Origin: Desulfobacterales bacterium
Lineage (GTDB): Bacteria > Desulfobacterota > UBA8473
Assembly (NCBI GenBank): GCA_016209225.1
Contig: JACQWO010000068.1
Span: 62,001 to 126,000 of the forward strand
Direction: 5' to 3'
Length of the DNA stretch: 64,000 nucleotides
The notes beneath the pieces are model-generated. The model was given only the letters and a program-made list of their open reading frames with translations. It ran no database searches and was not told the origin of the DNA. Each line of letters starts with the position of its first letter. The stretch's first letter is position 1. Of this stretch, positions 19,708-61,044 are shown in pieces. The position numbers and the translations under genes were made by a program.

Positions 19708-22449
19708 ATGAACATGGAAAAAATAGTAAGGCTGTCTTATGACAGGCCATGGATTGTAGTTATTATAACTGCCATTATAACTGCTGTGCTTGCTATTCCT
19801 GCGATTAGCCTCCACATAGATGTTTCAAGCGACAGGTTTATGGCAAAAGGCACTCCTGAAAAGACCAAGTATGAGGATACGATAAAGGTCTTTGGTTCCG
19901 ATGTCCTCTCTTTTATTTATATCAGGGATCCAGAGTTATTTACTGAAAAGAAATTAACCCGTCTCAGAGCCATGTTTGACCAGCTTGCCAATCTGAAAGG
20001 CGTTGAGAAGGCGGAAAGCCTGTTCACAATCAATAATATTAAAGGCGAGCAGGGGGGTATTGATACAGCGCCTCTCCTTGATATTATACCTGCTGATCCC
20101 AATGAACTTCAGAAAAAGCAGAAAGACGCTATTGACAATCCGATCATCAGGAAGAGTTTTATTTCTCTTGATGGCAAATCTACGGTTATATCGCTTTACC
20201 TCAGCAGGGATAAAAAAGACTATAAGTTCGACAGCAGAATAAAGACGGATATAGAAAGGGTTACTGATACATATAAAGGCGATTTTCAGGAGATTTTCCA
20301 GACAGGAGCGCCGTATGTAAATACCTCTATGTCAGAGTATATCGTGGACGACCAGCTCATATTGGTGCCGGTCGCTGTGTTCGCTTTGCTTTTTGTTATC
20401 CTGTTGACGCTGCGTAATATACACGGGGCAATAGTCCCTATAGTCAACGCTGGTATAAGCATTATCTGGACATTCGGCTTTATGAGACTGTTCGGCGTAC
20501 CGATAAACCCCTTAACTGCAATTGTGCCTGCCATTATGATTGTCATAGGGGCTACAGAAGACACCCACATGGTTGCCGAGTTTTTGGAAGCCACAAAAAA
20601 AGGCGAATCTCCGAGAGAGGCAGTTCTCGTCGGCATAGGAAAAAAGCTCGGCATAGCGTTCTTCTTAACAGCGTTTACCACAGTTATCGGATTTGGCTCT
20701 ATTGCCTTCAATGATGTGACCATTCTGCAGGATTTTGGAATTGCATCCGGCTTGGGTTTCTTCCTGAATTTCTTTGTAACAATAACCATGACGCCTGTAT
20801 ATCTGAGATTTTTTGGAAAGCAGGTAATGGCAAAGGGTTTTCATGGAGAATCGAAAGACAGCAAAATCCTTGAGAGAATCGTGAGGACAGTGACTTATTG
20901 GGGCACTCAGTACAGAAAAAGGATAATAGTCATCAGTTCTTTACTCCTTATTATATCGATAATCTTTACATTTAATATCTATGTGAATAACGATGTTATT
21001 TCGTATTTCAGGGCAAGTTCGCCGATTGTCCGTGCTGCCCAGAAAATGCATGATAACTTGTCAGGTCAAAACCTGTTCTATATCACTATTGATAAGGATA
21101 CAGGGGATTTTAAAAAGGCAGATAACCTGAAAAAGATAGAGAAGGTCAAATCCTATTTAAAAAATCTCAACGCATTTGATTCTGTTCTGAGTCTCCCGGA
21201 CTATATAGCTCTTGTCAACAAGGGGATGCAGAACGGAGATCCGGCTTTTCATAAAGTGCCTGATTCTGACAGCCTCATAGCCCAGTATCTTTTGTTTTTC
21301 CAGCGCAGTGATATAGAAAGGTTTGTCTCAGGCGATTACTCAAAAATAAATATAATGGTTCGTCACAATATAAACTCTTCCACACAGCTTAATGCACTTG
21401 TGGATAAAATAAGAAAAGACCTGAACAGCGGACGCTTCGGCAATTTCGATAAGGTATTGGTCACAGGCGAAGGGATTTTAATTGCAGAAGCTGCTGAAAG
21501 CTTTATATCAGGACAGGTGTCTTCTCTTCTTTCAACAGCATTCATTATAGCGGCGATAATGGGATTTCTCTTCCTGTCCGTGAAAGCCGGGCTGATAGTT
21601 CTGATTCCGAACCTTCTGCCGGTCTTTATATTCTTTGGTTTTATGGGTTTACTAGGCATCCCCTTAAACGCCGGAACTGTTATGGTAGCTGCAGTTACCA
21701 TAGGAATTGCTGTCGATGACACAACTGTATTTATGGTTCTCTACAATCAGAATCTTAAAAAGTATGGCGATGAAAAACGGGCACTTGAGGATACACTTTT
21801 ATCTGAGATTAAGCCTATATTCATTTCAAGCGTTTCATTAGCCGCAGGGTTCGGTACATTAGTTTTCTCAAAATTTGTTCCGATAGCCCAGTTTGGGGCA
21901 TTGAGTGCATTTGTTATGGTTATCGCATTTGTTACAGAACTTTTTATAACCCCGCTTACACTCTCGTCTGTCCGTCTTATCACATTATGGGATGCTATAG
22001 GGCTTGAACTTAGAGAGCGTCTTATTAATAAATCCGTGCTCTTAGAGGGATTCAGCAAGTTTCAGATCAGAAGGCTTATCCTGATGTCTCATATAATAGA
22101 AGCTGAGGCAGGAGAACATATAATTCATGAAGGCGATACGGGCGATAAGATGTATCTTGTTGTAGACGGCCAAATGTCTGTATCAAAACAGGTCAACGAA
22201 CAGCGGACAGTTATTGCCAGCTTAGAACCGGGAGATGCGTTTGGCGAGATCGCACTGGTGAGCAGCCAGCCAAGGACAGCGGATGTCTTTGCTGTAACCA
22301 ATGCAAAACTCTTATCGTTAGACTGGAAAACGCTTGAGAGGCTGCGCCACCTGAGCCCGTTCATTACCTCAAGACTTTTCTTGAACCTCTCAAAGATTTT
22401 AGGAACCCGTCTTACAGAAACTACGGAGAAAATGGTATGCCGTTTATAG
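19708..22449 (+). CDS. RND/MMPL-family transporter fused to a C-terminal cyclic-nucleotide-binding domain
   Basis: 913 residues. Two RND repeats, each with a periplasmic loop followed by clustered helices, cover about 1-755 (GATEDTHMVAEF in the first helix bundle and GIAVDDTTVFMVLYNQNLKK in the second are the conserved acidic helix motifs). Residues about 775-890 are a CRP/PKA-type domain (AGEHIIHEGDTGDKMYLVVD; cassette PGDAFGEIALVSSQPRTADV with the ligand-binding Glu and Arg intact). The fusion suggests transport gated by a cyclic nucleotide. It sits between a LolA-like protein and a barrel, so a lipid or hydrophobic substrate is likely. The end overlaps the barrel gene by 13 bp. Confidence 0.9.
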   Translation: MNMEKIVRLSYDRPWIVVIITAIITAVLAIPAISLHIDVSSDRFMAKGTPEKTKYEDTIKVFGSDVLSFIYIRDPELFTEKKLTRLRAMFDQLANLKGVEKAESLFTINNIKGEQGGIDTAPLLDIIPADPNELQKKQKDAIDNPIIRKSFISLDGKSTVISLYLSRDKKDYKFDSRIKTDIERVTDTYKGDFQEIFQTGAPYVNTSMSEYIVDDQLILVPVAVFALLFVILLTLRNIHGAIVPIVNAGISIIWTFGFMRLFGVPINPLTAIVPAIMIVIGATEDTHMVAEFLEATKKGESPREAVLVGIGKKLGIAFFLTAFTTVIGFGSIAFNDVTILQDFGIASGLGFFLNFFVTITMTPVYLRFFGKQVMAKGFHGESKDSKILERIVRTVTYWGTQYRKRIIVISSLLLIISIIFTFNIYVNNDVISYFRASSPIVRAAQKMHDNLSGQNLFYITIDKDTGDFKKADNLKKIEKVKSYLKNLNAFDSVLSLPDYIALVNKGMQNGDPAFHKVPDSDSLIAQYLLFFQRSDIERFVSGDYSKINIMVRHNINSSTQLNALVDKIRKDLNSGRFGNFDKVLVTGEGILIAEAAESFISGQVSSLLSTAFIIAAIMGFLFLSVKAGLIVLIPNLLPVFIFFGFMGLLGIPLNAGTVMVAAVTIGIAVDDTTVFMVLYNQNLKKYGDEKRALEDTLLSEIKPIFISSVSLAAGFGTLVFSKFVPIAQFGALSAFVMVIAFVTELFITPLTLSSVRLITLWDAIGLELRERLINKSVLLEGFSKFQIRRLILMSHIIEAEAGEHIIHEGDTGDKMYLVVDGQMSVSKQVNEQRTVIASLEPGDAFGEIALVSSQPRTADVFAVTNAKLLSLDWKTLERLRHLSPFITSRLFLNLSKILGTRLTETTEKMVCRL

Positions 22450-23844: not shown

Positions 23845-25080
23845 TCACACTATGTATCTTTCTATTATATCAATACACTCTTTATTATTTTCTAAGGTGG
23901 CAATTGACAGTGGTGTTGCACCCCTTTTATTCTCAATTTTAAGGGTATCAGGTGACTTTTCAATAATAAACTCGAGGCATTCCTTTCTGCCCTTTTCAGC
24001 CGCTATAAAAGCAGGGGTTGCTCCAGTGTTATCCTGAATCCTGATGGTATCAGGCTCTTTTTCGAATATGAACTCCAGACATTCCTTTTGGCCCTTTTCA
24101 GCCGCTACAAAAGCAGGAGTTTTCCCGTTGTTATCTGGGATTTTAAGGGTTTCGGGTGACCTTTCAATAATAAACTCGAGACACTCTTTTCTGCCCTTTT
24201 CAGCAGCTATAAAAGCAGGAGTTGCTCCAGTGCTATCCTGAATCCTGATGGTATCAGGCTCTTTTTCGAATATGAACTCCAGACATTCCTTTTGGCCCTT
24301 TTCAGCCGCTACAAAAGCAGGGGTTTTGCTGTCCTGAATACTGATGGTATCAGGCTCTTTTTCGAATATGAACTCCAGACATTCCTTTTGGCCCTTTTCA
24401 GCCGCTACAAAAGCAGGGGTTTTCCCATCATTATCTGGGATTTTGAGGGTATCAGGCACCTTTTTGAATATGAACTCGAGACATTCCCTCTCACCCTTCT
24501 CAGTCGCTACATATGCAGGAGTTGCTCCACTGCTGTCCTGAATCCTGATGGTATCAGGCTCTTTTTCGAATATGAACTCCAGACATTCCTTTTGGCCCTT
24601 TTCAGCCGCTACAAAAGCAGGAGTTTTCCCGTTGTTATCTGGGATTTTGAGGGTATCAGGCACCTTTTTGAATATAAACTCGAGACATTCCCTCTCACCC
24701 TTCTCAGTCGCTACATATGCAGGGGTTGCCCCTGGTATTACGCCCCTTTCGGTTTGAATTTTGAGGGTATCAGGTGCCTTTTCAGCAATAATCTCAAGGA
24801 AGTCTCTGAGACCCTTTTCGGCAGCTATAAAAGCAGGGGTTGCCCCATCCCTATTCTGGGTTCTAAGAGTCTCGGGCGCCCTCTCGGCAATAATTTGGAG
24901 ACACTCCTTGTAGCCCTTTTCTGCAGCAAAATAAGCAGGGGTATCCCCGGATCTGTGACGTGTAGAAAAAGATTGAATTGAAATCTTTTTTAGCTTTTGT
25001 ATATCCTTGTTTAAAATTAATTCTCTAACCTCATCATAGGATAATGTCTTCTTTTTTCCTAAAAGATCAAAAAACCCCAT
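23845..25080 (-). CDS. Ankyrin-repeat protein with nearly identical repeats
   Basis: 411 residues: an N-terminal segment (1-45) followed by eleven repeats of about 33 residues with consensus GATPAFVAAEKGQKECLE. Repeat 3 has four extra residues and repeat 7 lacks two to three (SIQDSKTPAF). Repeats fall into two alternating types (FIFEKEPDTIRIQD and FIFKKVPDTLKIPD). The DNA of several repeats is almost identical, pointing to recent duplication. No signal peptide, so it is presumably cytoplasmic. Ankyrin arrays bind proteins; the partner is unknown. Confidence 0.9.
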   Translation of the reverse strand: MGFFDLLGKKKTLSYDEVRELILNKDIQKLKKISIQSFSTRHRSGDTPAYFAAEKGYKECLQIIAERAPETLRTQNRDGATPAFIAAEKGLRDFLEIIAEKAPDTLKIQTERGVIPGATPAYVATEKGERECLEFIFKKVPDTLKIPDNNGKTPAFVAAEKGQKECLEFIFEKEPDTIRIQDSSGATPAYVATEKGERECLEFIFKKVPDTLKIPDNDGKTPAFVAAEKGQKECLEFIFEKEPDTISIQDSKTPAFVAAEKGQKECLEFIFEKEPDTIRIQDSTGATPAFIAAEKGRKECLEFIIERSPETLKIPDNNGKTPAFVAAEKGQKECLEFIFEKEPDTIRIQDNTGATPAFIAAEKGRKECLEFIIEKSPDTLKIENKRGATPLSIATLENNKECIDIIERYIV

Positions 25081-25206: not shown

Positions 25207-26649
25207 CTACTTCCAAAACAGGTTTTTTTGAACAGCCTCCAAATATTCTTTATAATTAAAACCAGGGCTGCGTTCCTTTGTGTGGCATCTAAGGCAGACA
25301 TCTTCACTCATACTTTTGACTATATCTCCCCCTCTTTGGTGTTTATCTCCTGCCCCATGACACTCCTCACATTGTACACCCTTGAATTTTCCTAAACTGC
25401 TCAGGCTTGAAAAACCACCTCCCCTATCATATCCAGTAGTATGGCATCCTATACACTCCAAATCGAACTGCTGGTTTTTGTTGATCAAACTCTGATATGC
25501 CCTGGCATGTTTGGTCTCCTTCCACAATTCATATTCCTTTGGATGGCATGTCCGACAAACCTTATCCCCTACAAAAATATTGGTTATTGTCACCTTTCCC
25601 TTTTCTGGGCTATAGGCTTGAAGTTTCTTTCTGTGAAAGTTGTCCTCTGTGGCTATTTGGGAGATGCCTTTTTTATAGTTCTTGATTAAATCACTGATCT
25701 CTGCATCATCTTTTATGTTATCCCCTAAGGGGAGAATCACATTTTTATATGTAGCCTTTTTAATAAAATCTTCTGCCTTTACATTATTATGAAGGGTCAA
25801 ATCCAATATCCCAAGATACTGTCCCTCTTTGTATGCCTGTAAAATAAGGGTGTTATTAATTATAATCGGGGAATCAAGTTTTACCTTGTCATGCCCGCCG
25901 ATAATTATATCTATTTCTGGGATTCTCTTGGCTAATTCTTTATCAGATAGAAGCCCAAGATGAGTCAGGGCTATAATTAGATGGGTTTTACCCTTTAACT
26001 CAGAAACCAGTGTTTTTGCCGTTTCAAAAGGGTCTTTAACGGCTAAATTGCTTGATGTGTCTTTGCTAAATCTGCTCTGGATATCCGGGGTAACTAAACC
26101 AAGTATACCAACCTTTAAACCGTTAATGTCCTTGATAATATAAGGTTGAAACAGGGGCTTCCCAGTGTTTTTGTCTATTAAGTTGGCCGAAAGGAATGGA
26201 AATTTAGCCGATTCTGCCTTTTTCATAAGGTATTTTACTCCCATGGCTAGATCATAATCCCCGACATTGAAGGCACTGCATCCGATCCTGTTGAAGGATT
26301 CTATGATCAGGTCTGCCTTTAATCTCAGCTGTTTTTTCAGGGGTTCAGACAGGTAGTAGTCCTTGAAGAGAAGATCACCGGAATCCAGAATGAGGAGGTT
26401 CTCCCTTTCCTGTTTCAATTTCTTAATATAGGTTGCCTTCCTGGCAAGACCGCCATGTCTGTTATTGCCTCACCCACAGGGGTCAGTTTCGCCGCGGACA
26501 TCATTGGTATAAACAATGGTAATCTGATAAGACTTAGCGGCAAAAGCATTTGTTGAGAGCGCTAAAAGAGACAGGATAACTGAGTTTATTATTAAAGCAT
26601 GTATAATCACAGTGCAACAGCGGACAGGTCTTGTTTTTCGATATTTCAT
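25207..26649 (-). CDS. Periplasmic metallophosphatase/5'-nucleotidase-like tetraheme cytochrome, candidate selenoprotein (in-frame TGA)
   Basis: Read from ATG 26649, a signal peptide (residues 1-37, ending NAFA) leads to the calcineurin-like opening ITIVYTNDVRGETDPCG, then TGA at 26472-26470 (codon 60), then GNNRHGGLARKATYIKKL and an open frame to 25207. Total 480 residues counting the TGA. Metallophosphatase motifs follow (ILDSGDLLF, NVGDYD, ALTHLG, GGHDK), then four heme sites: CRTCH, CIGCH, CEECH, CLRCH. As I recall, relatives have PCGC at the TGA, so selenocysteine replaces cysteine. The alternative is a point-mutated pseudogene; gene finders would call only the piece from TTG 26418, which lacks the signal peptide that heme attachment requires. 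Confidence 0.75.
26443..26472 (-). promoter_or_regulatory. Candidate bacterial SECIS hairpin after the in-frame TGA
   Basis: On the minus strand, directly after TGA: GGCAA pairs with TTGCC as a lower stem, then a five-base 5' bulge (TAACA), then GAC/GTC (or AGAC/GTCT) as an upper stem closing the six-base loop ATGGCG. Bacterial SECIS elements sit immediately downstream of the UGA with a bulge and a G-containing apical loop. The loop Gs are at positions 3-4 here rather than 1-2, a weak point. Confidence 0.45.
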
Positions 26650-35796: not shown

Positions 35797-35886
35797 GGAA
35801 TGATCCTTTATTGTCCTCGAATCCTTAAACCGTTGGTTTTAGCCGATGGTGGTTGACCTAGCTAATTTACTTGAGATGTGTGAGTT

Positions 35887-35919
35887 AGTCAAGGATAAAA
35901 ACGTCCAAATTCCTTGACT
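35887..35919. promoter_or_regulatory. Inverted repeat overlapping the ruvX -35 region
   Basis: AGTCAAGGA (35887-35895), 15-nt spacer, TCCTTGACT (35911-35919), perfect over 9 bp, in the divergent S58/ruvX intergenic space. The right arm coincides with the putative -35 box. A repressor site or a structural repeat are both possible. Confidence 0.4.
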
Positions 35920-35941
35920 TCCAGGTTGCGTATATTATATC
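35914..35941 (+). promoter_or_regulatory. Probable promoter of ruvX-mltG
   Basis: TTGACT (35914-35919), 16-bp spacer, TATATC (35936-35941), 61 bp before the ruvX start. Confidence 0.4.
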
Positions 35942-36002
35942 ATAACTCCCTAATTGCCCAGTTTTTACCTGTCTGATTCTAAAGTCTAGGAGAAGGATAC
36001 CT

Positions 36003-36416
36003 ATGAGGATAATTGGTCTGGATGTGGGGAGCAAAACCATTGGTGTGGCGGTGAGCGATGAAATGGGATGGACCGCTCAAGGGGTTACCACTATAATCCG
36101 TAAGAGTCTGGATAGCGACCTTGAAGAACTCAGGAAACTGATGGACCAATATAATCCTTTAGAGATCGCAGTTGGGCTGCCTAAGAACATGGATGGTACC
36201 ATAGGTAAACAGGCAGAAGGGGTGCTGGCCCTGGTAGAGACCATGAAAAAGAGTCTAAATATCCCTGTAATCACATGGGATGAGCGACTCTCTACAGTGG
36301 CTGCCAACAGGACTTTGTTAGAGGCTGATCTCAGTCGTAAGAAGAGGAAGAAGGTTATCAATAAAATGGCAGCGGTATTCATTTTGCAGGGATACTTAGA
36401 CAGCAGGGCGGGGTAA
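36003..36416 (+). CDS. ruvX: Putative pre-16S rRNA nuclease (YqgF/RuvX)
   Basis: An RNase-H-fold protein needed for 16S rRNA 5'-end maturation. 137 residues with [19 protein letters not shown] at the start, [10 protein letters not shown] and [14 protein letters not shown] carrying the acidic catalytic residues. GGAGAAGGA precedes ATG 36003. mltG follows at 6 bp. Confidence 0.94.
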
Positions 36417-60089: not shown

Positions 60090-61044
60090 TTTTATAATAT
60101 TCAATGACACTTTCTATTATTCCATCTATATCTACTGTAGGTTCAAAGCCTATAAGGTTTTTAACCTTGCTTGTGTTTGGGCAGCGGCGCTGCATATCCT
60201 CAAACCCAGGACCATATACCTCTTCATAAGGTAGACATATAATTTCCGATTTGCTTTTAGTCATCCTTTTCACCATTAATGCCAGATCTTCGATGGCAAT
60301 CTCTTTCCCGTTGCCGATATTAAAGATATCCCCGATTGCATCTGGATGTGTCATAATATCTATAAGCCCCCTAACCGCATCCTTCACATGAATAAAACTC
60401 CTTGATTGTTTCCCGTCACCGTGGATGGCTATCGGTTTATTTAACAGGGCCTTTTGGACAAAGTTTGGGATTACCATACCGTACTGCCCACTCTGTCTTG
60501 GGCCTACAGTATTAAAGAGCCTGACAATGATGGTAGGTAGTTTTTTTTCTTCATAGTAAGCAAGGGCCAAAAACTCATCAATGGTCTTAGAACAGGCATA
60601 AGCCCAGCGTCGCTTCTTTACTGACCCCATTACCCGATTATCATCTTCTTGTAATGTATGCTCTACATGTTTACCATAGACTTCAGAGGTAGAAACGATA
60701 AGCACCATCTTCCTATATTTATTGGCCAGTCGTAAGACGATTTCTGTCCCTTTAACGTTGGTTTCAATAGTCTCCACCGGGTTATTCATTATCAACTTTA
60801 CCCCAACGGCTGCAGCTAAGTGATATATCTCATCACATTCCTGTATCAATTCCTCCATTACTGTTTCATTTAGGATAGTATCGATTGTCAAATGAAATCG
60901 CTTGTTTTCTCGAAGGTGCTTTGTATTTTCAAGCCGTCCTGTAGATAGATTATCTATAGCAAATACTTCGTGGTTCCTGAAGAGCAATTCGTCTGCCAAA
61001 TGAGAACCGATAAAACCTGCTCCCCCTGTAATCAGTGTTTTCAT
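60085..61044 (-). CDS. NAD-dependent epimerase/dehydratase (UDP-glucuronate decarboxylase-like SDR)
   Basis: 319 residues. GGAGFIGSHLADELL NAD motif, VSTSEVYG, catalytic YACSK (Tyr-x3-Lys) and NTVGPRQSGQYGMVIPNF are present. QRRCPNTSKVKNLIGFEP near the end resembles UDP-xylose synthase and ArnA-type enzymes, but the substrate is not certain. With ugd supplying UDP-glucuronate, UDP-xylose formation is possible. Stop codon supplied by the family C palindrome. Confidence 0.85.
   Translation of the reverse strand: MKTLITGGAGFIGSHLADELLFRNHEVFAIDNLSTGRLENTKHLRENKRFHLTIDTILNETVMEELIQECDEIYHLAAAVGVKLIMNNPVETIETNVKGTEIVLRLANKYRKMVLIVSTSEVYGKHVEHTLQEDDNRVMGSVKKRRWAYACSKTIDEFLALAYYEEKKLPTIIVRLFNTVGPRQSGQYGMVIPNFVQKALLNKPIAIHGDGKQSRSFIHVKDAVRGLIDIMTHPDAIGDIFNIGNGKEIAIEDLALMVKRMTKSKSEIICLPYEEVYGPGFEDMQRRCPNTSKVKNLIGFEPTVDIDGIIESVIEYYKK

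Follow-up and report, generated by a model that had tools for sequence, protein, structure and literature searches.

A predicted UshA-like PCGU selenoprotein with a tetraheme cytochrome domain and a probable periplasmic redox role in a Desulfobacterales genome

The DNA analyzed here (the window) comprises 64,000 nucleotides of contig JACQWO010000068.1 from a Desulfobacterales bacterium. Direct reading of its minus strand between positions 25207 and 26649 revealed a single frame that extends from ATG 26649 to TAG 25207 and encodes 480 residues (MKYRKTRP...AFAAKSYQ...YTNDVRGETDPCG-U60-GNNRHGGLARKATYIKK...LFWK*), with one in-frame TGA at codon 60 (26472–26470) and 420 residues after it. PCG-TGA and GGLARKATY are both present in this frame, as are four CxxCH sites (CRTCH at residue 365, CIGCH at 399, CEECH at 427, and CLRCH at 452). 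With these sites and an N-terminal signal peptide (residues 1–38, judged by eye), the protein has the features of an exported c-type cytochrome. The frame, its TGA, the secretion signal and the tetraheme domain all agree with the original prediction, as does the expected loss of the N-terminus in standard gene calling: without recoding, the open reading frame listed under the normal code has 403 codons and starts at TTG 26418. The following features were assigned:

25207–26649, minus strand: UshA-like PCGU selenoprotein gene, 480 codons plus TAG stop
26536–26649, minus strand: signal peptide (residues 1–38), with a hydrophobic stretch and an AFA-A type cleavage site
25780–26535, minus strand: UshA-fold (calcineurin-like metallophosphoesterase) domain with a degenerate metal site, approximately residues 39–290
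26470–26478, minus strand: Cys58-Gly59-Sec60 motif (TGT GGG TGA)
26470–26472, minus strand: TGA, predicted to be read as selenocysteine (Sec) 60
26442–26455, minus strand: putative bSECIS apical hairpin UGGC-GGUCUU-GCCA, with its loop 18 nt downstream of the UGA
25270–25578, minus strand: tetraheme cytochrome c554-like domain, CxxCH at residues 365–369, 399–403, 427–431 and 452–456

The gene stands alone between an ankyrin-repeat gene and a gene for a uvrD-type helicase. The adjoining ankyrin protein (23845–25080) has 411 residues with near-identical repeats, and farther along, at 19708–22449, the window encodes an MMPL/RND-type transporter with a cyclic-nucleotide-binding domain fused to its C-terminus. 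A second read-through frame at 35885–36382 was dropped, as it lies antisense to an open reading frame that is presumably a RuvX/YqgF-like gene.

The protein matched the curated NCBIfam equivalog NF041198 (“UshA_like_PCGU, UshA-like (seleno)protein”) with 450.3 bits (E = 8e-135; cut-off 275). The match covers both parts of the protein, the UshA-like part at profile positions 6–266 and the heme part at 345–519. UshA-like CxU selenoproteins (COG0737) were described by Zhang & Gladyshev in 2008 with 76 Sec sequences (PMC2398784) and appear in two later reviews (PMC9312934 from 2022 and PMC13188914 from 2026), the latter of which names NF041198. Hence, contrary to the original proposal, the gene does not represent a new selenoprotein type. 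Judged from its sequence, it is a genuine selenoprotein gene and a new member of the known UshA-like PCGU family, with which it shares the PCGU motif, the UshA-like N-terminal part and the heme-bearing C-terminal part; nothing was found to exclude membership. Relatives from outside the genus align with it at no more than 38% identity. A second model, NF049981 (UshA_like_Sel_2), resembles the protein in fold and in the position of a related motif, but it describes a CxxU instead of a CxU motif, spans 262 positions without a heme part, and is matched with 75 bits against a cut-off of 140. Several heme-free relatives were also noted. Two of them (L018:1408-2409 and L020:1486-2466) fall just under the NF041198 cut-off and carry S-G-U for C-G-U, an unusual lone-Sec variant without the partner Cys. 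Four others (L017, L023, L026, and L027) are CxxU proteins (PCPxU), and L017, the only one of these that was tested, did not reach the cut-off of either UshA-like selenoprotein model.

Evidence for the decoding of the TGA came from the comparison of related sequences. Two members of the same genus (G003 and G004) have a TGA at the identical position within proteins of 88% identity and with conserved flanks, and in both the codons from the signal peptide to the TGA are as conserved as those after it. Among the 107 relatives collected, the codon-60 column contained TGA in 70 and Cys in 33 sequences and never Trp; the remaining rows are three fragments lacking the column and one mis-framed sequence (L113) that reads Thr. 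Cys58 is present in 100 of the 107. Cys/Sec exchange within a P-C-G-U/C motif is thus found among NF041198-type relatives, consistent with the predicted occurrence of PCGC homologues and of TGA beyond a single assembly. In a quick tree, the Sec and Cys copies were interleaved, with a minimum of five changes. One of the TGA-containing sequences (L062) stems from a metagenome-assembled genome titled Thermoplasmata archaeon, but it clusters among bacterial sequences, and its TGA is followed by GGUCU codons of the bacterial type; the archaeal label is likely a binning error or reflects a transfer.

The putative hairpin downstream of the TGA was compared with bSECIS criteria (G at the start of the loop, 16–37 nt after the UGA, a stem of at least 4 bp, and a minimum free energy of at most −7.5 kcal/mol). 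It has a stem of 4 bp, a loop starting with G (GGUCUU) and a spacing of 18 nt, whereas its energy of −5.4 to −6.1 kcal/mol falls short of the −7.5 kcal/mol guideline (PMC13188914). Codons of the type GGT-CT[GT] at positions +7/+8 (Gly-Leu) were observed in 38 of 69 Sec copies, where the codon usage of the individual genes would predict 6.1 ± 2.3 (sd), and in 0 of 25 Cys copies. GGT CTG also occupies codons +7/+8 in E. coli fdhF. Stem pairs 1–3 are kept in all 43 GGUCU copies, although the protein sequence partly forces these pairs; pairs 4 and 6 are kept in 34 and 36 of the 43, respectively. Overall RNA folding of the region after the TGA was no better than that of shuffled sequences (z ~ −0.5 in Sec and Cys copies alike), and this general measure, unlike the codon-specific test, did not discriminate between the two. 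Sec loci of the Krumholzibacteriota/Eisenbacteria type (e.g., L083, L086, and L091) lack the GGUCU loop and have a longer hairpin farther downstream (GGCC-CGGA-GGGCC type), which suggests that the family contains a second SECIS style.

The genome-encoded Sec machinery, on which the original prediction depended, was recovered in part. It includes selA (on contig C58), a strong tRNA-Sec (75.9 bits), and selD (391 bits), which has its own in-frame TGA (GAG-U-AS). The selD gene (G000:C19; L056:172-1224), itself encoding a selenoprotein, is located near an open reading frame for a YedE-like transporter. A search of the genome contigs with a selB model did not find selB in the assembly: the best match, on C14 (121 bits), immediately follows a PAPS-reductase-like open reading frame and was rejected as a CysN-type GTPase. 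Members of the same genus do have selB, which in G004 adjoins a lytic transglycosylase gene. The flank homologous to this neighborhood is found at C58:58677-60117, and the contig ends at position 60266, an estimated ~90 bases short of the expected selB start. Because the homologous flank reaches the end of the contig and selB is present in the genus, the gap is most likely an assembly break. Taken together, the Sec/Cys exchange among relatives, the conservation of SECIS-type codons and the sel genes lead us to regard decoding of TGA codon 60 as Sec as very highly probable.

These data also bear on readings of the TGA other than Sec. If the gene were a pseudogene or the TGA an assembly error (a nonsense mutation or a miscall), a truncated standard translation such as the one listed would be expected, and one genus member (G001:C101:328-1813) does carry a copy split over two frames farther down, a break that probably represents an assembly frameshift. 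However, three genomes within the genus have the same TGA, as do about 70 relatives, Cys is the sole alternative in correctly framed copies, and both the SECIS-type codons and the sel genes speak against decay, so that we consider this explanation extremely improbable. Hardly any credence is due to the idea that the TGA encodes another amino acid (e.g., Trp under a changed code) or that the shortened protein starting at TTG 26418 is the functional one; the open frame itself is the one argument for this idea. TGA ends 13 of the 47 long open reading frames in the window and is thus an ordinary stop elsewhere, the relatives have Cys and never Trp, and the truncated product would be without the export signal required for heme attachment.

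A different question is whether the selenoprotein is still a phosphoesterase (a 5'-nucleotidase or SoxB-like enzyme) in which Sec would replace a metal ligand and the hemes would form an accessory electron or anchoring module. The fold is in keeping with such a function: the AlphaFold2 model (pLDDT 88.6, pTM 0.88) retrieved nearly exclusively 5'-nucleotidases among the 50 PDB matches listed, Pfam Metallophos scored above its cut-off, and the UshA and SoxB models scored similarly. In E. coli UshA, the published metal ligands are D41, H43, D84, N116, H217, H252, and H254, and the catalytic dyad is H117/D120. According to the PDB sequence alignment, the ligands correspond to D50, R52, D92, D131, H230, H253, and K255 in the window protein, and the dyad to Y132/A135. 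Four of the seven ligands (D50, D92, H230, and H253) are therefore kept, which makes some metal binding conceivable, but the dyad is gone and the earlier statement that all phosphatase motifs are present does not hold. The full canonical set was found in 0 of 90 relatives compared, and the equivalents of D41, D84, H217, and H252 are jointly kept in just 14 of these, whereas Cys58 and residue 60 (Cys or Sec) are invariant in all 90 rows. Compared with the 5'-nucleotidases UshA, CD73, and CpdB, the N-terminal domain is alike in fold (~22–26% identity in structural alignments) but has a degenerate metal site and dyad and an added CGU motif, and where UshA has its C-terminal substrate-binding domain, the window protein carries the heme domain. 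Overall, a phosphatase function appears doubtful, and a Sec-containing phosphoesterase with accessory hemes is an unlikely account of the protein.

The tetraheme domain matched the cytochrome c554 model (Pfam PF13435, 63 bits) and, over residues 359–443, the PDB structure 1bvb (Nitrosomonas CycA). The CxxCH arrangement resembles that of cytochrome c554; here, in contrast, the domain is fused to a UshA-like domain, and only two additional invariant His residues lie outside the CxxCH sites. These two, His381 and His437, are invariant together with the heme Cys and His residues in alignments of 20 and 70 sequences. Since the CxU/CxC pair and the four hemes are conserved while the phosphatase residues are lost, the protein would be expected to perform redox work and not hydrolysis.

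Gene neighborhoods among the relatives provided further clues. A DsbA-like thioredoxin gene lies directly downstream on the same strand in 10 of 23 Cys-type (PCGC) loci with enough downstream sequence (L095, L105, L107, L112, L118, L124, L128, L129, L131, and L136) but in 0 of 40 Sec-type loci (Fisher's exact test, p = 9e-6, with related loci that are not independent). The ten loci come mostly from one phylum, with seven from Nitrospinota and one each from Nitrospirota, Myxococcota and an unclassified organism. Two of the DsbA-like neighbors were checked against Pfam and identified as DSBA; their motif is CGHC or CGSC, and the spacing is operon-like where the start codon is clear. The adjacency is possibly a functional clue for the whole family. 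Nine Sec-type loci (L061, L062, L067, L068, L069, L072, L074, L077, and L101) are situated beside a gene for a NapC/NrfH-anchored 16-heme cytochrome, of which the L062 copy is a two-heme fragment, and a gene for a 9-heme cytochrome b561-like protein lies beside seven loci, including several of those next to the 16-heme gene. Neither a DsbA-like nor a multiheme cytochrome gene adjoins the window gene, so that the redox model draws on the anatomy of the protein and on its relatives. A search of this genome revealed no convincing homologue of the 16-heme cytochrome, and this partner thus does not carry over to it.

The proposed sequence of events is as follows. UGA codon 60 would be decoded as Sec with the aid of the hairpin directly downstream, and the product would be exported and loaded with four c-type hemes. 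The UshA-type domain has lost its dinuclear metal and catalytic residues, and Cys-Gly-Sec sits in the loop that formerly provided the first metal ligands. Sec60 and Cys58 may then exchange electrons with a substrate or thiol partner, forming a selenenylsulfide, while the tetraheme domain fused to them may carry electrons to or from periplasmic cytochromes; the redox role, the direction of electron flow and the partners are what we infer. As a joint explanation, a family selenoprotein with Sec decoding that acts as a periplasmic thiol/selenol redox enzyme with a tetraheme cytochrome is best suited to the data and quite probable. Taken alone, the thiol/selenol-heme redox role, deduced from anatomy and relatives, is moderately likely. 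A more speculative extension, to which we assign a rather low probability, is that PCGU/PCGC proteins are heme-linked thiol/selenol oxidoreductases that trade electrons with DsbA-type periplasmic proteins, a cytochrome-coupled counterpart of DsbB/VKOR built from a phosphatase fold no longer used as such, and that the Sec forms act beside 16-heme quinol cytochromes.

As the family and its use of Sec are already catalogued, the gene itself is ordinary news, and it is the function that would matter; a literature search found none described for the UshA-like PCGU family. The gene also exemplifies how automatic annotation loses the signal peptide and the active site of such proteins in uncultivated genomes. 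The family owes its name to a nucleotidase, and in 2008 Zhang & Gladyshev separated it from the thiol redox selenoproteins by leaving it out of the families with conserved Cys-based redox motifs (PMC2398784). The loss of phosphatase residues, the tetraheme fusion and the gene neighbors point instead to an unexplored connection, in the periplasm, of thiol/selenol chemistry with cytochromes.
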